From Candidatus Galloscillospira excrementipullorum (GTDB lineage Bacteria; Bacillota; Clostridia; Oscillospirales; Feifaniaceae): a DNA stretch of 64,000 nt. A program made the translations under genes and the position numbers. The notes under the pieces were generated by a model that was not told where the DNA came from, ran no database searches, and saw only the letters and a program-made list of their open reading frames with translations. Below, one piece after another: positions 8,886 to 21,471 of this stretch (its first letter is position 1; each line of letters opens with the position of its first letter). The stretch lies in NCBI GenBank assembly GCA_018714125.1, contig DVNV01000070.1, forward strand, positions 1 through 64,000, read 5' to 3'.

Positions 8886-10298
8886 ATGGCGCCTGAAAAA
8901 AATCAATGCTGCACGCTGTCCATCACCGGCCTGTCGCACGACGGGGCCGGCGTGGGCCGCACCGAGCAGGGCTACGTTCTTTTCGTGCCGCACACGGCGC
9001 CGGGCGACCTGTGCGAGGTGCGGGTGGTCAAGGCGCTCAAGCACTACGGCTACGGCCGTCTGGAACGGCTGCTCTCCCCCTCCCCCGACCGGTGCGAGCC
9101 TGCTTGTCCCGTCTTCGGGCGCTGCGGCGGCTGCGTTTATCAGCACATCACCTACGAAGCCGAGTGCCGCACAAAGCAGCAGCAGGTGGAGATGGCGCTG
9201 CAAAAAGAGCTCTCCGGCCCGCAGCCGGTGGCGCCCATTGTCCCCTCCCCCGCCGTGCTGCGTTACCGCAACAAGGTGCAGCTTCCGGTGGGCCTGCAGG
9301 ACGGACATGCCGTAACCGGATTTTTCCGCAGCCGCAGCCATCAGGTCATCCCCTGTGAAGACTGCCTGCTGCAGCCCCGCGAGGCCTTTGTGGCCGCACG
9401 CCTGCTGTGCAGCCACATCGACGCCTTCGGCATCCCGGTCTACGACGAGCGCACCCACCGAGGCCTGGTACGCACGCTCTTTGTTCGCGTGGGCGCCGTC
9501 ACGGGGCAGGTCATGGTGGTTGTGGTCATCAACGGCCAGCTCCTGCCGCATGCGCAGGAGCTGGTCTCCTCCCTGCGGGAACATCTGCCCGGGCTGGCCA
9601 GTATGCAGCTCTGCCACAACACCCGCCAGACCAATGTCATCCTGGGGGATTCCTATACGACGCTGTGGGGCGCCCCCACCATTGAAGACAGCATCCTGGG
9701 CGTCCCTTTTTCCATCTCGGCCGCCTCCTTTTACCAGGTCAACCATGCCCAGTGTGAGGCGCTCTACCGCACGGCCGCGCAGCTTGCGGAGCTTGACGGC
9801 ACGCAAAAGCTGCTTGACCTGTACTGCGGCATCGGCTCCATCGGCCTGTCCATGGCGCACCTGTGCAGTGAGCTGGTGGGCGTTGAAGTCGTGCCGCAGG
9901 CCGTGGCCGACGCCGACGCCTGCGCCCGCGCCGCCGGCATTGACAACGCCCGCTTCCTGTGCGCCGACGCCGCGCAGGCCGCCGCAGCCCTTGCGGCCGA
10001 GGGCTTTCGCCCCGACGTGGTCATTGTCGACCCACCGCGCAAGGGCTGTGAGCCCTCCCTGCTGCAGACCATTGCCGACATGGCGCCTTTCCGCGTTGTC
10101 TATGTCAGTTGCAACCCCGCCACCTTGGCGCGCGATTTGCGCATCCTGCGCACCCTGGGCTATGAACTCGTGCAGGCCCGCCCCTTTGACTTCTTCCCCA
10201 GAACCGCTCATGTGGAGACGGTTGCCGGCCTGGTCCGAAAAGCCCCTGATGATTTTTCCCGCGCAAACCGGGAGCCTGCCGGCAGCGCCGGCTTGTAA
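8886..10298 (+). CDS. rlmD: TRAM-domain class I SAM-dependent RNA methyltransferase (RlmD/RumA family, 23S rRNA uridine-C5)
   Basis: 470 aa; CPVFGRCGGCVYQHI Fe-S motif, LLDLYCGIGSIGL, DPPRKGCEPSLL, YVSCNPATLARDL. Confidence 0.85.
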   Translation: MAPEKNQCCTLSITGLSHDGAGVGRTEQGYVLFVPHTAPGDLCEVRVVKALKHYGYGRLERLLSPSPDRCEPACPVFGRCGGCVYQHITYEAECRTKQQQVEMALQKELSGPQPVAPIVPSPAVLRYRNKVQLPVGLQDGHAVTGFFRSRSHQVIPCEDCLLQPREAFVAARLLCSHIDAFGIPVYDERTHRGLVRTLFVRVGAVTGQVMVVVVINGQLLPHAQELVSSLREHLPGLASMQLCHNTRQTNVILGDSYTTLWGAPTIEDSILGVPFSISAASFYQVNHAQCEALYRTAAQLAELDGTQKLLDLYCGIGSIGLSMAHLCSELVGVEVVPQAVADADACARAAGIDNARFLCADAAQAAAALAAEGFRPDVVIVDPPRKGCEPSLLQTIADMAPFRVVYVSCNPATLARDLRILRTLGYELVQARPFDFFPRTAHVETVAGLVRKAPDDFSRANREPAGSAGL

Positions 10299-10420
10299 TG
10301 CGCCCTTTAAGGCCGGCCGGAACGGCACAGCAACGGTCGCCCTCCCCCATCCGACAAAGGGGTCTCCAAATTGGAAAGCCCCGCAGAAAAAAGATGCCGG
10401 CCCACACGGCAAAAACCAAA

Positions 10421-11953: not shown

Positions 11954-14344
11954 ATGCTTTATCCAGCGCACTTCCGTCAAGCTCTAGATGGCTCCACCAT
12001 GGAAATCCAGACTCTGTCGGAACACAGCCGGAATACGGCCGAGCTTTCCTCGGAACGGCTACACTCTGTCCGTCTCACCAAAGCAGGGTATCTGGCGGGT
12101 CTCATCCACGATTTGGGAAAGGGGCAAGAGGCTTTTCGGTTGTATATGGAAACCATCATGGCCGGCCATCCGGCGCAGCGTGGCTCTGTCATTCACACCT
12201 ATGCCGCAGCTCGTTTTTTACTGGAACACTTCCACACCGCTGACGACCCGTACCGGGATATGACTGCGGAGCTGCTGGCCTTTGCCGCCGGCGCCCACCA
12301 CGGATTGTTCGACTGTGTGGATGAAAAACACCATCTTGGCTTTTCCCGCCGTCTTCAGTGGGATGATGACTCCTACCAAGAAGCCACTGCGGCCTTTCTG
12401 GAACAGTGTGCCGGGATGGATGAGTTGGAGGCGCTGTTCGACCAGGCGGAACAAGAACTGATACCCGTCTTTGATCGGATCAACACACGCGACAGCAACG
12501 AGGAAATCTTCTTTCATCTGGGTCTTCTGGCCCGCCTGCTGCTCTCTGCTGTTATCGAGGGGGACCGCTATGATACCGCACGGTATGCACGCCGCACCAT
12601 ACCTCCAGCCTTCCCAACCCATCAGGAGGAGTTCTGGCTCCAGTTGATGGCCCGCGTGGAGAAAAAACTGGACAAGCTCCCCCACGACACCCCCATTCAG
12701 CGGGCCCGGCGTGAGATCTCCCGCAGGTGCCGGGAGGCGACGAACCAGCCAGGAGGTATTTATCGCTTGAATGTCCCAACTGGCGGTGGCAAAACCCTCG
12801 CTTCTCTCCGATTCGCTCTGGCCCACGCCGCAGCCAACAAAAAATCCCGGGTGATTTTTACTTCGCCTCTGCTGAGCATCCTTGACCAGAACGCCCAGGT
12901 CCTGCGGGACTATATCGGGGACGATAGTCTTATTTTGGAACATCACTCCAACGTGGTCCGGCAGAGTCCAGAGGCAGGTCCGGACGAGTTGGATCCCAGG
13001 GAACTGTTGGCCGAAAACTGGAATGCTCCCATTATTATCACCACCCTTGTTCAACTGCTGAATACCCTCTTCGACGGCCGGACAACCTGCATTCGCCGTT
13101 TCCAGGCTCTGTGCAACTGCGTTCTGGTCATTGACGAGGTTCAGACGGTGCCGCCCCGGATGCTGACGCTGTTCAATCTGGCCATAAATTTTCTCGCCGA
13201 CTTCTGCGGCGCAACGGTTGTGCTCTGTTCCGCCACTCAGCCTTGTCTGGAAGAGGCAGACCACCCCATGGAGGGGAATTTGAAAAGCCTGGTGCCCTAT
13301 GACCCGGAGCTCTGGGCCCCTTTCCGGCGGACCCGGATCGTGGATGCCGGGGCACGGCGGCTGGAAGAGATCCCCGATTTTGTCCAGGATGTGCTGGAGC
13401 AAGCCGCCAGCCTGCTGGTGGTGTGCAACACAAAAAAGCAGGCTCAGTTCCTGTATGAACGGATGACGCTAGAACATGTGGTTTGCTTCCATCTCTCTGC
13501 TGCCATGTGTCAGGCACACCGAAAAGCGGTGCTTTCCCAGATAGCAACCGCCCTGGAAGAGAATCATCGGGGCGGTTCCAAGGTTCTGTGTATTTCTACC
13601 CAGGTCATCGAGGCTGGCGTGGACATCTCCTTTGGAGCAGTCATCCGCTTGACTGCCGGTATGGACAATGCGGTACAGACTGCCGGGCGCTGCAATCGAA
13701 ACGGGGAGTCCGACAAACCGGCACCGGCCTATTTGATCACCTGCAGCGATGAGAACCTGCGTGTACTTCCAGAAATCCAAAACGCCAAGACCGCCACATT
13801 GCAACTTCTCTCTGCCTTCCAGCGCAACCCTGCACAATTTGACGGCGATCTGGCCTCAGACGCTTCCATCGCCTGCTATTACAGAAACCTGTATCACGGT
13901 ATGAGAGATGGGGCGCAGGACTATCCCCTGAAAAATCGTCGAACCCTCTTTGACCTGCTCTCTGTCAACGACGCCTATGCCGCCGGCTGGCCTGGCATGG
14001 AAGAGTTTGGGCTCCGCCAAGCTTTCCAAGAGGCGGGGCGTGCATTCCGGGTCTTTGACCAGGAGACGACCGATGTGCTGGTCCCCTATGAGAATGGCGC
14101 TGCGATCATCGAGGCGCTGGGCTCATCTGCCGTTCAAAAGGACTGGAAACGGCAACAGAAGCTGCTGGAACAGGCAAAACCCTATACTGTCTCCCTCTAC
14201 CAATATCAGAAAAAGCTGCTGGAAAAGCAGCATGGCCTGATAGCGTATCTGGATGGCAGTGTTTTGGTGCTGTCCCCTGAATTTTATCATAGAGAAACCG
14301 GCTTGACCCTGGAGTCAGGCAATCTGGAACTGTTGGAGGTGTAA
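11954..14344 (+). CDS. cas3: CRISPR-associated helicase/nuclease Cas3 (HD + DExD/H), type I-C
   Basis: GLIHDLGKGQEAF and AAGAHHG (HD), NVPTGGGKTLASLRFAL (Walker A), VIDEVQTV (DExx box); start MLYPAHFRQ after GGGAGG. Confidence 0.93.
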   Translation: MLYPAHFRQALDGSTMEIQTLSEHSRNTAELSSERLHSVRLTKAGYLAGLIHDLGKGQEAFRLYMETIMAGHPAQRGSVIHTYAAARFLLEHFHTADDPYRDMTAELLAFAAGAHHGLFDCVDEKHHLGFSRRLQWDDDSYQEATAAFLEQCAGMDELEALFDQAEQELIPVFDRINTRDSNEEIFFHLGLLARLLLSAVIEGDRYDTARYARRTIPPAFPTHQEEFWLQLMARVEKKLDKLPHDTPIQRARREISRRCREATNQPGGIYRLNVPTGGGKTLASLRFALAHAAANKKSRVIFTSPLLSILDQNAQVLRDYIGDDSLILEHHSNVVRQSPEAGPDELDPRELLAENWNAPIIITTLVQLLNTLFDGRTTCIRRFQALCNCVLVIDEVQTVPPRMLTLFNLAINFLADFCGATVVLCSATQPCLEEADHPMEGNLKSLVPYDPELWAPFRRTRIVDAGARRLEEIPDFVQDVLEQAASLLVVCNTKKQAQFLYERMTLEHVVCFHLSAAMCQAHRKAVLSQIATALEENHRGGSKVLCISTQVIEAGVDISFGAVIRLTAGMDNAVQTAGRCNRNGESDKPAPAYLITCSDENLRVLPEIQNAKTATLQLLSAFQRNPAQFDGDLASDASIACYYRNLYHGMRDGAQDYPLKNRRTLFDLLSVNDAYAAGWPGMEEFGLRQAFQEAGRAFRVFDQETTDVLVPYENGAAIIEALGSSAVQKDWKRQQKLLEQAKPYTVSLYQYQKKLLEKQHGLIAYLDGSVLVLSPEFYHRETGLTLESGNLELLEV

Positions 14345-14347
14345 TGT

Positions 14348-15082
14348 ATGTCAAACCCCATCCATCGCAACCTGGTGGAATTCCAGGTCACCGGAGACTA
14401 TGCTCTGTTCAGCGACCCCATCACCCGCGTGGGGGGTGAAAAATGTACTTATCAGGTACCCACTTATGAGGCGCTGAAGGGCATCTTATCTTCTGTATAC
14501 TGGAAGCCCACCATTGTCTGGTACATTGATGCAGTCCGGGTCATGGAGCCCATTCAAACAGAGGTCAAAGGCATTCGGCCCATCAAATATCATGGCGGCA
14601 ACGAGTTGGCCTACTATACCTACCTCAAGCACGCCCGCTACCAAGTGCGGGCTCACTTTGAGTGGAATGACAATCGGCCGGAGCTGGCAGGTGACCGCAA
14701 CGAGAACAAGCATCACTGCATTGCCCGGCGTATGATTGAAAAGGGCGGCCGGCGGGATATCTTTCTGGGTACTAGAGAGTGCCAGGGCTATGTGGAGCCC
14801 TGTGCCTTCGGGGAGGGCCCCGGGGCCTACGACGCCATCCCGGAACTGAGTTTCGGCCTCATGTACCACGGCCTCACCTATCCGGACGAGGCCTACTCCC
14901 CAGAAACCAAAGGCCTGATAACTGCTCATTTTTGGTACCCTGTGATGAAAGCGGGCGTTGTCACCTTTCCACGGCCAGAGGAATGTCCGCTCCACAAGCC
15001 CCTGCGCAAGATGGAGATGAAGGTTTTTGACCGATCTCTGGACAACTTTACCGGCCTTGCGGAGTTCGGGGAGGTGATGTGA
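14348..15082 (+). CDS. cas5c: Cas5, type I-C (Cas5d/Cas5c)
   Basis: FQVTGDYALFSDPITRVGGEKCTYQVPTYEALKGIL...; operon position. Confidence 0.92.
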   Translation: MSNPIHRNLVEFQVTGDYALFSDPITRVGGEKCTYQVPTYEALKGILSSVYWKPTIVWYIDAVRVMEPIQTEVKGIRPIKYHGGNELAYYTYLKHARYQVRAHFEWNDNRPELAGDRNENKHHCIARRMIEKGGRRDIFLGTRECQGYVEPCAFGEGPGAYDAIPELSFGLMYHGLTYPDEAYSPETKGLITAHFWYPVMKAGVVTFPRPEECPLHKPLRKMEMKVFDRSLDNFTGLAEFGEVM

Positions 15083-16896
15083 TGGGACTGCTGCAAAAAG
15101 CGGTGGAAACCTACCAGGCCCACAGCGTTTTCGTTGGGGTAGAGCGCGAGGAACACCAGGTCCTTCTCCCGGTCTCCCACATCCTAGCCCGGGCTGACCT
15201 GGAAATTACCTTGGAACCGGAGGGAACCTTCTCCTCTGCCCGGCTGGTGGACAAGAGCGAGCCCAAAATCCCCATCCCTGCTACAGAGGAGTCCGCCGGG
15301 CGCACCAGTGGGACCTGTGCTCATCCTCTTTGTGATCAACTTTGCTATCTGGCTCCCTACAACGAGGAAAAACACCGCCTTTACATTGAGCAGTTGACCG
15401 CATGGGCGGAATCATCCCACGGCCACCCCATGCTCCGACCCATCCTGACCTACGTCCAGGGCGGTACCATCCTCTCCGACCTGGTGCAGGCCTGCCAGCT
15501 TGAACTGGACGAAAAAGGCATCCCCAAAGACGAAAAACTGATGGTCCGTTGGCGGGTCCACGGTATCGGAGCACCGAAGGACGGATGCTGGCAGCAGCCC
15601 TCCCTCTTTCAGGCATTTCAGGCCTGGTACGCCAGTTTGCAGCCGGAGGATACTGCGCTCTGTATGATTACCGGCCAGTATGCCGTCGCCGCCAAGCAGC
15701 ACCAAAAGGGAATCATCCCCATCAGTGGTAATGCCAAGCTGATTTCCGCCAACGATACCAGCAACTTTACCTTCCGGGGACGGTTTACCGATGACAGCCA
15801 GGCCGCCACCATCAGTTACGAGGCCTCCCAAAAAGCCCACAATGCCCTGCGGTGGATTGCGGCGGAGCAGGGCGCCCGGGCCATCTTCGGCGGACGGACT
15901 TTTTTATGCTGGAACCCCCAGGGGCTCCAGGTCTGCCATGTCACCGCTGGCTTTGGAAACCGGAATCAGGTCAAGACCATTCCCAGCGACTACCGCCGGG
16001 AACTGAAGAACACCCTGGACGGGATGCGCAGCCAGCTGCCCTCGCAGAGCGGGGTCGTGATCGCAGCTTTTGATGCGGCCACCACCGGGCGGCTGTCGGT
16101 GACCTACTACAACGAACTCCAGAACAGCGACTATCTCCAACGGCTCTGTGACTGGGACGAGCACTGCTGCTGGTATTTCGGCTGGGACAAATTTGGAGTA
16201 AATTCTGCCATCCAGTCTCCGCTCCTGCGCCGGATCGTGGACTGCTCCTTCGGGGTGCCGACCTCAGAAAAAGGCCATGTGCAGCTGAAGACGGATGAGC
16301 GGATCATGGGCCAGCAGATGCAGCGCCTAGTGGCCTGCCGGGTGGATCGGGGACACATCCCTCTGGACATTGTGAAGGCCCTGTCCCACCGCGCCTCCAA
16401 CCCCCAGCGATTCAGCAGCCCTGCGGTGCGGGAGGAGATCCTCGCCACCGCCTGTGCCGTGATCCGGAAATACCGCTATGACGTTTACAAGGAGGAATGT
16501 GCCATGGAATTTGATCCAAGCAAAGACGATATCAGCTTTCAGTTTGGCCGCCTGCTGGCCGTGCTGGAGAAGGTGGAACGGGACACCTACGATAACGGTG
16601 AGACCCGGGAGCCCAATGCCATCCGACTGCAGTCCATCTACTGCCAACGTCCGTTGCATACGGCGGGCATGCTTGAAAAGCAATTAGAGCGCGCCTATTT
16701 TCCACGCCTGGCAAAGCCGGCCTTCCGCGCCTACTACAAAAATCTGATAGGCGAGATCATGGAAAAGATCTATGCTAAACCGAAAGAGAGCTGGAATGCC
16801 CCCCTAAAAGAAACCTACCTGATGGGTTACTATCTCCAGCGCAAGGACCTGTATACAAAGAAAGAGAAGTCTGAGGAGAACAAGGAGGAAAACTGA
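15079..16896 (+). CDS. cas8c: Cas8c/Csd1, type I-C large subunit
   Basis: 605 aa, Csd1-like; overlaps the cas5 stop; starts GTG/ATG. Confidence 0.92.
   Translation: MMGLLQKAVETYQAHSVFVGVEREEHQVLLPVSHILARADLEITLEPEGTFSSARLVDKSEPKIPIPATEESAGRTSGTCAHPLCDQLCYLAPYNEEKHRLYIEQLTAWAESSHGHPMLRPILTYVQGGTILSDLVQACQLELDEKGIPKDEKLMVRWRVHGIGAPKDGCWQQPSLFQAFQAWYASLQPEDTALCMITGQYAVAAKQHQKGIIPISGNAKLISANDTSNFTFRGRFTDDSQAATISYEASQKAHNALRWIAAEQGARAIFGGRTFLCWNPQGLQVCHVTAGFGNRNQVKTIPSDYRRELKNTLDGMRSQLPSQSGVVIAAFDAATTGRLSVTYYNELQNSDYLQRLCDWDEHCCWYFGWDKFGVNSAIQSPLLRRIVDCSFGVPTSEKGHVQLKTDERIMGQQMQRLVACRVDRGHIPLDIVKALSHRASNPQRFSSPAVREEILATACAVIRKYRYDVYKEECAMEFDPSKDDISFQFGRLLAVLEKVERDTYDNGETREPNAIRLQSIYCQRPLHTAGMLEKQLERAYFPRLAKPAFRAYYKNLIGEIMEKIYAKPKESWNAPLKETYLMGYYLQRKDLYTKKEKSEENKEEN
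16504..16896 (+). CDS. cas11c: Putative internally initiated small subunit Cas11c (C-terminus of Cas8c)
   Basis: In-frame ATG at 16504 preceded by AAGGAGG (16489-16495) at 8-nt spacing; product MEFDPSKDDISFQFGRLLAVLEKVE... Confidence 0.75.
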   Translation: MEFDPSKDDISFQFGRLLAVLEKVERDTYDNGETREPNAIRLQSIYCQRPLHTAGMLEKQLERAYFPRLAKPAFRAYYKNLIGEIMEKIYAKPKESWNAPLKETYLMGYYLQRKDLYTKKEKSEENKEEN

Positions 16897-16898
16897 TC

Positions 16899-17759
16899 AT
16901 GAACATCCTGCAGCATAAAATCGACTTCGTGGCCCTGGTTAGTGTCACCATGGCCAACAGCAACGGCGACCCGCTCAACGGCAACCGTCCTCGCACCGAC
17001 TACAACGGCTACGGCGAGATCTCCGACGTATGCATCAAACGAAAGATCCGCAACCGGATGCAGGATATGGGCCACAAGATTTTTGTCCAATCTGACAGCA
17101 GATGTGACGACGGGTTTGGCAGCCTCAGCGAACGGGCCTCCGCTGTGATGAATGGGGAAAAGGACCGGGACGCCTATGCCAAAAAAGCCTGTGAGACCTG
17201 GCTGGATGTGCGCACCTTTGGTCAAGTCTTTGCCTTCAAGGATACCAAGGGTGTCTCCGTTGGGGTCCGTGGTCCGGTCTCCATCCACCAGGCGGTGAGC
17301 CTCTCGCCGGTGGAGGTGGAGTCTCTCCAGATCACCAAGAGCGTCAACGGTGAAAAGAAGGACAAAAAGAGCGGTGACGACGCCGGAATGAGCTCCGACC
17401 GGATGGGCATGAAACATATGGTCCGCTTCGGACTGTATGAGCTCAAGGGTTCCATCAACGCCCAGCTTTCAGAGAAAACGGGCTTTTCCGAGGAGGATGC
17501 CCAGGTGGTGAAGGAGTGCCTGCGCACCCTCTTCGTCAACGACGCATCCTCTGCCCGTCCAGATGGATCCATGGAAGTCGTGAAACTCTTTTGGTGGGAA
17601 CACAACTGCAAGGACGGCCAATACTCCTCCGCCAAGGTTCAGCGGTCCGTAAAGGCCGTTCTGAAGCCCGATGTAGACGTCCCTTCCAGCGTGAAAGACT
17701 ATAACATCTCCATTGAACCATTGGAAGGCCTGGACCCCGAAATCCTGGAGGGACTTTGA
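16899..17759 (+). CDS. cas7c: Cas7, type I-C (Csd2)
   Basis: VSVTMANSNGDPLNGNRPRTDYNGYGEISDVCIKRKIRNRMQ, typical Csd2 N-terminus. Confidence 0.93.
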   Translation: MNILQHKIDFVALVSVTMANSNGDPLNGNRPRTDYNGYGEISDVCIKRKIRNRMQDMGHKIFVQSDSRCDDGFGSLSERASAVMNGEKDRDAYAKKACETWLDVRTFGQVFAFKDTKGVSVGVRGPVSIHQAVSLSPVEVESLQITKSVNGEKKDKKSGDDAGMSSDRMGMKHMVRFGLYELKGSINAQLSEKTGFSEEDAQVVKECLRTLFVNDASSARPDGSMEVVKLFWWEHNCKDGQYSSAKVQRSVKAVLKPDVDVPSSVKDYNISIEPLEGLDPEILEGL

Positions 17760-17775: not shown

Positions 17776-18453
17776 ATGGATTTTATGGCTCCCTATTGCG
17801 ATGAGGACCTCCTCCAGCTTTCTGGCTTGCAGCACTTCGCCTTCTGCCGTCGACAGTGGGCCTTGATTTATTTGGAGCAGCAGTGGGCCGAAAATCTATA
17901 CACCGTGGAGGGAAGGCTGCTCCATCACCGTGCCCACGATGAGGCCGCTCGGGAGCGTCGGGGCAGCACCCTGATTCTTAGGGGCCTGCCTATTGTATCC
18001 CACTCCTTGGGGCTCTCTGGCCAGTGCGACGTCGTGGAGTTCCTCCTAGTCCCGAACGGCGTCCCTCTTCATGGCGAGGAGGGGTTGTGGCAGCCTTACC
18101 CCGTAGAGTATAAGCGGGGCAAGCCAAAAAGCCATCAGGCTGACGAACTCCAGTTGTGCGCCCAGGCCATGTGCTTGGAGGAGATGCTCTGCTGTGAGAT
18201 TCCCGAGGGAGCCCTGTTCTATGGAGAACCCCGACGCCGGACCGTGGTGGCATTTACAGAAGAGTTAAGGCAGACTGTCAGAAACTTTACCGAAGAGATG
18301 CACCAATATGCCAAAAGAAACTACACGCCAAAAGCGAAGACTAGCCGATCCTGTAACGCTTGTTCCCTGAAAGAGCGTTGTATCCCCCAACTCACCCGGC
18401 GGGGCAGCGTGTCGGATTACCTGAAGCAGGCGATGGAGGAGACACTGCCATGA
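17776..18453 (+). CDS. cas4: CRISPR-associated exonuclease Cas4
   Basis: LSGLQHFAFCRRQWALIYLEQQWAEN ... CNACSLKERCIP (Cys cluster); RBS AAGGAG; start MDFMAPY. Confidence 0.9.
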   Translation: MDFMAPYCDEDLLQLSGLQHFAFCRRQWALIYLEQQWAENLYTVEGRLLHHRAHDEAARERRGSTLILRGLPIVSHSLGLSGQCDVVEFLLVPNGVPLHGEEGLWQPYPVEYKRGKPKSHQADELQLCAQAMCLEEMLCCEIPEGALFYGEPRRRTVVAFTEELRQTVRNFTEEMHQYAKRNYTPKAKTSRSCNACSLKERCIPQLTRRGSVSDYLKQAMEETLP

Positions 18454-19481
18454 GACATCTGCTAAATACTTTGTTTATCACCAGCGAGGACATCTATCTA
18501 TCTCTAGACGGGGAAAATGTGGTGGCAAACCGGGGGCAGCAGTCGGTGGCCCGCTATCCGCTCCATATCCTATCTAGTATTGTCTCCTTCTCCTACGCTG
18601 GGGCATCCCCCGCCCTCATGGGTGCCTGTGCGCAACGGAACATCTCCCTTGCCTTCTGTACGCCACGGGGCCGCTTTCTAGCCAGAGTGACCGGGGAAAG
18701 CTCCGGGAATGTACTGCTGCGCCGGGCCCAATACCGGGCGGCGGACGAGCCTGACTCCTGCTGCCGCCTGGCCCGGAACATGATTTTCGGAAAGGTCTAC
18801 AATGCCCGGTGGAGCCTGGAGCGAACCCGGCGGGATCATGGACTGCGAGTCGATGACAACGCGCTGAGCAACGCATCTTCCCAACTGCAGGAGCTGCTGC
18901 CTCAAATTGAAGCCGAGACCTCTTTAGAGCATTTGCGAGGCTTGGAGGGCGCGGGCGCCACGGCCTATTTCCGTGTCTTTGATCAGTCAATTTTGAGTGG
19001 GAAACCTTTTTTCGCCTTTGAATCAAGAAATCGACGGCCGCCCACAGATCCGGTAAATGCCCTGCTGTCCTTTGCCTACAGCCTTCTGGCCAATGACTGC
19101 GCCTCAGCCCTGGAGAGTGTTGGGTTGGATGCCTATGTGGGATTTCTCCACCGGGACCGGCCTGGGCGAACTTCCCTTGCCCTCGATCTGATGGAGGAAC
19201 TGCGTCCCTGCCTGGCTGACCGGTTTGTCCTGACTCTTATCAACAACCGAATGGTGAGCCAGGAGGACTTTGAGTTTCGGGGGACCGGAGCTGTATCCCT
19301 GTGCGATTCTGGACGGAAAGTATTTTTACAGCATTGGCAGAACAGGAGAAAAACGGAGTTAACCCACCCCTATTTGCAAGAAAAGATCCCGTGGGGGCTG
19401 GTCCCCTATATACAGGCATTGCTCCTGTCCCGCACCCTGCGAGGAGATCTGGATAGCTACCCGCCCTTTTTGTGGAAGTGA
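18450..19481 (+). CDS. cas1: CRISPR integrase Cas1, type I-C
   Basis: MRHLLNTLFITSEDIYLSLDGENVVAN..., DPVNALLSFAYSLLANDC; ATGA overlap with cas4. Confidence 0.95.
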   Translation: MRHLLNTLFITSEDIYLSLDGENVVANRGQQSVARYPLHILSSIVSFSYAGASPALMGACAQRNISLAFCTPRGRFLARVTGESSGNVLLRRAQYRAADEPDSCCRLARNMIFGKVYNARWSLERTRRDHGLRVDDNALSNASSQLQELLPQIEAETSLEHLRGLEGAGATAYFRVFDQSILSGKPFFAFESRNRRPPTDPVNALLSFAYSLLANDCASALESVGLDAYVGFLHRDRPGRTSLALDLMEELRPCLADRFVLTLINNRMVSQEDFEFRGTGAVSLCDSGRKVFLQHWQNRRKTELTHPYLQEKIPWGLVPYIQALLLSRTLRGDLDSYPPFLWK

Positions 19482-19488
19482 GAGGCCT

Positions 19489-19779
19489 ATGTTTGTATTG
19501 ATTACCTATGATATAAACACTGAAGATGCCTCTGGTCGAAAACGTCTGCGGCAGATTGCCAAGCAGTGCGTCAACTACGGCCAGAGGGTGCAGAACTCTG
19601 TCTTTGAGTGTATGCTTGATAGCGCCCAGTGCAAGCTGCTCCAGACAAAACTTCTATCTATTATGGATGAGACCAAAGACAGCCTCCGGTTTTATTATCT
19701 TGGCAAGCGGTATGAGAACAAGGTCGAACATTTTGGTGCCAGGCAAACTTATTTGCCTGAAGAGCCTCTGCTTCTCTAG
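19489..19779 (+). CDS. cas2: CRISPR-associated endoribonuclease-fold Cas2
   Basis: 96 aa, MFVLITYDINTEDASGRKRLRQIAKQCVNYGQRVQNSVFECML. Confidence 0.95.
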   Translation: MFVLITYDINTEDASGRKRLRQIAKQCVNYGQRVQNSVFECMLDSAQCKLLQTKLLSIMDETKDSLRFYYLGKRYENKVEHFGARQTYLPEEPLLL

Positions 19780-19952: not shown

Positions 19953-21471
19953 GTCGTCCCCCTCGCGGGGGACGTGGATTGAAATTAATCCCATTTCCGC
20001 ACTTGCTTCCATTCTTTCGGTCGTCCCCCTCGCGGGGGACGTGGATTGAAATACTGAGCACGGTTACATTATCGGTGTTATGTGCGCGTCGTCCCCCTCG
20101 CGGGGGACGTGGATTGAAATATCTTTCGCCTGAGAAGTTATGCGCGAACAGCAAGTCGTCCCCCTCGCGGGGGACGTGGATTGAAATGTAACCCGGTACA
20201 CGCAGCCCGTCCAGGTCTGGCAGGTCGTCCCCCTCGCGGGGGACGTGGATTGAAATGCGCAATCTTCGACCTGATTTCTCCGGATGCTCAAAGTCGTCCC
20301 CCTCGCGGGGGACGTGGATTGAAATATGGGGCAAAATTCGAGCAATCCCGTTGTCCAACGTCGTCCCCCTCGCGGGGGACGTGGATTGAAATGTGTGGTT
20401 CGTTCTGGGGTTCTCTGGGCCCCGGCGTCGTCCCCCTCGCGGGGGACGTGGATTGAAATAGGTGGTGCTACCGCCCGGACAGCGCCGGGAAATGGGTCGT
20501 CCCCCTCGCGGGGGACGTGGATTGAAATTTGAGCCTCTTGCCATTTACGCAGCGAGGCAGCCGTCGTCCCCCCCGCGGGGGACGTGGATTGAAATAGCGT
20601 GATTGCAATTGTCACCGGGGAGCTTGTTGCGTCGTCCCCCTCGCGGGGGACGTGGATTGAAATGACCCTTTGAAGTAGTGCATCAGACCATGCCCGTCTC
20701 GTCGTCCCCCTCGCGGGGGACGTGGATTGAAATGTCGTCCCTTACTGCCAAGAAAACGGATACACCTGTCGTCCCCCTCGCGGGGGACGTGGATTGAAAT
20801 TGCACCGATGAGAGAATAAATACGCTCTCTTCATGTCGTCCCCCTCGCGGGGGACGTGGATTGAAATTGCATCTGTCGGAAAGATGTTGGAAAAGGCCAA
20901 GGGTCGTCCCCCTCGCGGGGGACGTGGATTGAAATCAACCTTGCTGACCTGCCCACGTATTCGGACGGGTCGTCCCCCTCGCGGGGGACGTGGATTGAAA
21001 TGGCTACCAGGAAGCCTGGGCGGAGTACAGATACAGTCGTCCCCCTCGCGGGGGACGTGGATTGAAATTGCGCGCAAGGTTAATTCCACCGCCGGCCAGC
21101 TGTCGTCCCCCTCGCGGGGGACGTGGATTGAAATGTCGATCCCGTTGTAATTGTTTATTTTCCCGACGTCGTCCCCCTCGCGGGGGACGTGGATTGAAAT
21201 CAGATAAAATTGTACGCCAAGAGGCAGAAATTGAGGTCGTCCCCCTCGCGGGGGACGTGGATTGAAATCAGAGAGCAAAGCGGATGAGGGCATGGCGGAG
21301 GTGGTCGTCCCCCTCGCGGGGGACGTGGATTGAAATATTGTGGCCAAGTATCACGACTATTTCACCAGCGGTCGTCCCCCTCGCGGGGGACGTGGATTGA
21401 AATTTCCTCTCTTACCTCCTCTTGCATCCACACATGCGGTCGTCCCCCTCGCGGGGGACGTGGATTGAAGT
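19953..21471 (+). CRISPR. Type I-C CRISPR array, 23 repeats / 22 spacers
   Basis: 33-bp repeat GTCGTCCCCCTCGCGGGGGACGTGGATTGAAAT; spacers about 33-37 nt; repeat 10 (20563) has T11>C; last repeat ends GAAGT. Confidence 0.98.

Follow-up and report, generated by a model that had tools for sequence, protein, structure and literature searches.

The Cas11c protein of the D. vulgaris type I-C system was reportedly first described by McBride 2020. A separate 14-kDa subunit corresponding to Cas8c residues 489-612 was isolated from this system, and the composition of the Cascade complex was established as Cas7(7)Cas8c(1)Cas5c(1)SSU(2), with the small subunit present twice per complex (O'Brien 2020, PMC7684278). 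That the D. vulgaris Cascade has two Cas11c copies, needed for assembly or the R-loop, is known from PMC7684278 and reportedly from Tan 2022, as cited in PMC11899642. The Cse2/Cas11 protein of type I-E systems is treated as the canonical small subunit (PMC7684278). Since translation of the small subunit from within the gene for the large one has been published for types I-B, I-C and I-D (PMC7684278, PMC11899642), this kind of gene-within-gene is already described, and the initial annotation rightly regarded separate translation of Cas11c from within type I-C cas8c as established (PMC7684278).

The cas8c locus and its probable internal start site

The window, i.e., the whole 64-kb stretch of DNA analysed here, contains a complete type I-C operon in the order cas3-cas5c-cas8c-cas7c-cas4-cas1c-cas2, followed by a CRISPR array (Table 1). 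The identity of the genes was confirmed with NCBIfam, cas3, cas4 and cas2 by general models and the others by I-C models, and cas8c is present in the genome in one copy.

Table 1. Features of the type I-C locus, with positions in the window
Feature	Position	Strand	Evidence
cas3 (helicase and HD domain)	11954..14344	+	TIGR01587, TIGR01596
cas5c	14348..15082	+	TIGR01876
cas8c/csd1, 604 aa; GTG 15079 is an alternative start	15082..16896	+	TIGR01863, 272 bits (cut-off 218.65); PF09709, E 2e-101
Internal Shine-Dalgarno sequence AAGGAGG (predicted)	16489..16495	+	Sequence; Shine-Dalgarno and start in 191/198 related cas8c frames
Internal ATG start (predicted), Met475 of Cas8c counted from ATG 15082	16504..16506	+	Same column as the D. 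vulgaris Cas11c GTG
cas11c (predicted), 130 aa, ~15 kDa, in frame within the 3' end of cas8c	16504..16896	+	phmmer, TIGR01863, Foldseek
cas7c/csd2, own Shine-Dalgarno AAGGAGGA	16899..17759	+	TIGR02589; leader sequence
cas4	17785..18453	+	TIGR00372
cas1c	18450..19481	+	TIGR03640
cas2	19489..19779	+	TIGR01573
CRISPR array, 23 repeats GTCGTCCCCCTCGCGGGGGACGTGGATTGAAAT	19953..21471	+	Repeat count

Within cas8c, the AAGGAGG motif is separated by an 8-nt spacer, AATGTGCC, from ATG 16504, and the local reading is gac gtt tac AAG GAG GAa tgt gcc ATG gaa ttt gat. This ATG shares the cas8c reading frame; the ATG of cas8c itself lies 474 codons upstream, and the frame closes with the TGA at 16894-16896, which gives a C-terminal product of 130 aa (MEFDPSKDDISFQFGRLLAVLEKVE...). 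The motif, the spacing, the in-frame ATG and the length of the product had all been put forward in the initial annotation, and they are correct to the base. Within the operon, cas8c (GGGGAGGTGAT) and cas7c (AAGGAGGAAAACTGATC) have leaders that resemble the internal one. Another ATG, at 16497, was considered as a start and set aside, as its position 1 nt after the Shine-Dalgarno sequence is too close for the intended start; it is out of frame and opens a 5-codon peptide, MCHGI, followed by a stop, and this frame is probably meaningless.

The product and 7kha_K, the solved chain of the experimentally isolated D. vulgaris Cas11c, align without offset (residues 2-123 of each, phmmer E 8.6e-7); the product also aligns to the C-terminus of D. 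vulgaris Cas8c, and it matches positions 466-587 of TIGR01863 (E 1.8e-24). The in-frame start and its ribosome-binding site are placed where the C-terminal domain of Cas8c begins, at the position that is homologous to residue 489 in D. vulgaris. On the DP4 plasmid of D. vulgaris the same alignment column is occupied by GTG (CTG GAG GTG CCC GTG TCT CTC GAC CCC), the start codon of Cas11c, preceded by GGAGG. An AlphaFold2 model of the product, based on an alignment of 6 sequences, is all helical (pLDDT 77), and the top 8 Foldseek matches in the PDB are all Cas8 or Cas11 from type I-C Cascades (probability 1.00); both point to a helical-bundle fold. The Foldseek E-values are weak (0.02-0.1, i.e., above 1e-3), probably because of the only 6 sequences in the alignment.

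Given these data and the conservation described below, AAGGAGG and ATG 16504 are almost certainly a functional translation start of Cas11c. Ribosomes would bind AAGGAGG within the cas8c mRNA and initiate at ATG 16504, and the outcome would be a separate 130-aa copy of the C-terminal helical domain of Cas8c. By analogy with D. vulgaris, the type I-C Cascade may have a belly made of the C-terminal domain of a single Cas8c with two Cas11c copies in line behind it, and this belly would keep the non-target DNA strand in place within the R-loop. The motif, frame, homology and conservation are observed here, whereas translation of the site in this bacterium, a 1:2 stoichiometry and involvement in interference are extrapolated from D. 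vulgaris.

Conservation of the start signals in related cas8c genes

There are 13 copies of the AAGGAGG-N5-9-ATG pattern in the 64-kb window versus 0.78 expected, so in this genome the pattern mostly marks genuine starts. Besides the gene's own start, ATG 16504 is the only in-frame start codon within cas8c with a Shine-Dalgarno match of at least 5 nt; three other Shine-Dalgarno matches within the gene are out of frame. The site could still be a coincidence, the linker before the C-terminal domain of Cas8c simply reading Lys-Glu-Glu...Met and only full-length Cas8c being made. An AAGGAGG-like string arises easily from these residues: a match of at least 7 nt is retained in 31% of synonymous shuffles of the window cas8c, because Lys-Glu-Glu is readily written AAG GAG GA. 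The Shine-Dalgarno motif in the window gene alone is weak evidence, and as the single-gene statistics are too weak the decision was moved to comparative data.

The cas8c frames were gathered from the same order, class and phylum; a single-protein scan of contigs provided only 5 close relatives, and the remainder came from whole-genome searches by family. Among the first 137 frames, the codon at the aligned column was ATG in 65, GTG in 46, TTG in 9 and another one in 17, mostly in frames with the start displaced by one or two codons. Val at this column was encoded by GTG in 46/46 cases (background 31%, p 4.5e-24) and Leu by TTG in 9/9 (background 17%, p 1e-7), these binomial p-values assuming an independence that the sequences do not fully have, a problem which counting on representatives reduces and does not remove. 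In the enlarged set, 191 of 198 frames possess a Shine-Dalgarno match of at least 5 nt and a start codon at most 4 codons from the column. L035, which is closely related to the window gene, has Met replaced by Leu, written TTG, after AAGGAGG. When representatives below 60% identity were considered, a match of at least 6 nt with a start was found in 117 of 134, versus 22.4 +/- 3.8 in synonymous shuffles (n=200, maximum 31). The mRNA near the start is less structured than the rest of the gene (mean z +1.17 for 127 genes, +1.0 for the window gene), the site being A-rich and z uncorrected for composition.

The comparative data across the 198 frames are decisive and exclude chance. A coincidence is very improbable, as the start is kept as ATG, GTG or TTG even where the residue is Val (GTG in 66/67) or Leu (TTG in 11/11), the Shine-Dalgarno sequences of the relatives far exceed those of the synonymous shuffles, and the site falls exactly at the beginning of the experimentally isolated D. 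vulgaris Cas11c. There is even less to be said for a Shine-Dalgarno-like stretch acting as a ribosome pause site that aids stepwise folding of the Cas8c domains, with no initiation. Its location at a domain boundary, where the matched Cas11c domain begins, would suit such a function, but pausing needs no downstream start codon, yet GTG and TTG are kept over other Val and Leu codons, and the spacing to the start is nearly fixed (8 nt in 133 of the 191 frames). That a separate Cas11c comes from Cas8c proteolysis or from another start is hardly credible: a short type I-B Cas8b fragment was initially interpreted as fragmentation, but the archaeal type I-B product was abolished when the internal Met was changed (PMC11899642), and no in-frame start codon of cas8c other than ATG 16504 and the gene's own start is preceded by a Shine-Dalgarno match of at least 5 nt. 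The identification of the site as the Cas11c start, made in the initial annotation, is supported by position, frame, product and homology as well as by a nucleotide-level conservation of the start signals that exceeds the needs of the protein.

Seven of the 198 frames fail the test for a Shine-Dalgarno sequence with a start. In two of them (L065 and L067) an ATG follows AAGGAGG at a distance of about 14 nt, just beyond the spacing limit used, two (L148 and L186) are weak, and L133 and L151 are the fused variants discussed below. In the seventh, L060 (G143), cas8c is split into frames of 469 aa and 189 aa, the two family matches lying about 1.3 kb apart, and the second fragment retains the internal Shine-Dalgarno-GTG of Cas11c.

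A separate observation, made by eye, concerns L143 (G422), where an intact 121-aa Cas11c frame with a Shine-Dalgarno-GTG (10016-10381) is followed by cas7, cas4, cas1 and cas2. This cas operon begins at Cas11c, without adjoining cas3, cas5c or the large part of cas8c.

Fused cas8c variants outside the window

Two cas8c frames from genomes of different families contain three tandem Cas11 domains. The frame in L151 (5612-8344, G1050) encodes 919 aa from stop to stop, with domains 65-68% mutually identical, and that in L133 (the same as L153:1061-3736, G660) encodes 902 aa from stop to stop, with domains 30-38% mutually identical. Both are located between cas5c and cas7c in otherwise normal type I-C operons. 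At the Cas11c position L151 lacks the internal start and reads GAAGGGGTA ATA AAT ATT; L191, which is 80% identical to L151, reads GAGGAGGAG ATA AGT ATG there. No start codon was found at the Cas11c column of L133, and a weak candidate start is present ahead of its third domain (GTG codon 777, with AAAGGA 11 nt upstream). Additionally, L044 (G272) and L116 (G583), which belong to one genus, have two tandem Cas11-like domains in their cas8c frames, which are 784 and 779 aa long. As both retain the internal Shine-Dalgarno-GTG ahead of the first Cas11-like domain, initiation there would yield an internal product with two domains.

It seems probable that some type I-C systems replace internal translation by gene fusion, with two cases known. 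If so, the Cascade belly would be formed from a single polypeptide, its stoichiometry would be fixed, and internal initiation would have become dispensable. The fusions in L151 and L133, with their own C-terminal domain plus two Cas11 domains, reproduce the one-plus-two count of the D. vulgaris complex. A search of plasmid records found no further triple fusion, the matches being three query domains on one subject domain, and no description of such fusions was found in open-licence papers judged by title and abstract. The rare triple fusions without an internal start are a natural negative control and a test of why the start exists, and the fused variants are a more interesting lead than the window site.

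Significance and comparison with known small subunits

With the locus in the window, one more type I-C system would follow the rule of two proteins per cas8c gene, a rule overlooked by annotation. The claim of the initial annotation that cas11c is missed is true of the plasmid record of D. vulgaris, where cas8c is in the gene table and cas11c is not, the table being incomplete by its own description. Transfer of such a system to another host, or its recoding, must take the two proteins of cas8c into account. The rule is quantified at the nucleotide level by the comparative set, Val being nearly always GTG and Leu always TTG.

The predicted Cas11c shares with the Cse2/Cas11 protein of type I-E the character of a helical-bundle small subunit in the Cascade belly; unlike Cas11c, the type I-E protein is encoded by a separate gene. 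Cas11b, encoded within cas8b of the Haloferax type I-B system (PMC11899642), and Cas11d of type I-D likewise are small subunits whose translation begins inside the gene for the large subunit. They differ from the window Cas11c in subtype, and the I-B complex has three Cas11 copies (PMC11899642). The closest counterpart is the Cas11c of D. vulgaris (PDB 7kha and others), with which the window site shares an internal start that is in frame with cas8c and occupies the same alignment column, a Shine-Dalgarno sequence just upstream, and a product of about 124-130 aa that equals the C-terminal domain of Cas8c. The two differ in the start codon, ATG in the window and GTG in D. vulgaris, and in the Shine-Dalgarno sequence, which in the window is stronger and better spaced (AAGGAGG, 8 nt); they come from different phyla and their overall sequence identity is low.
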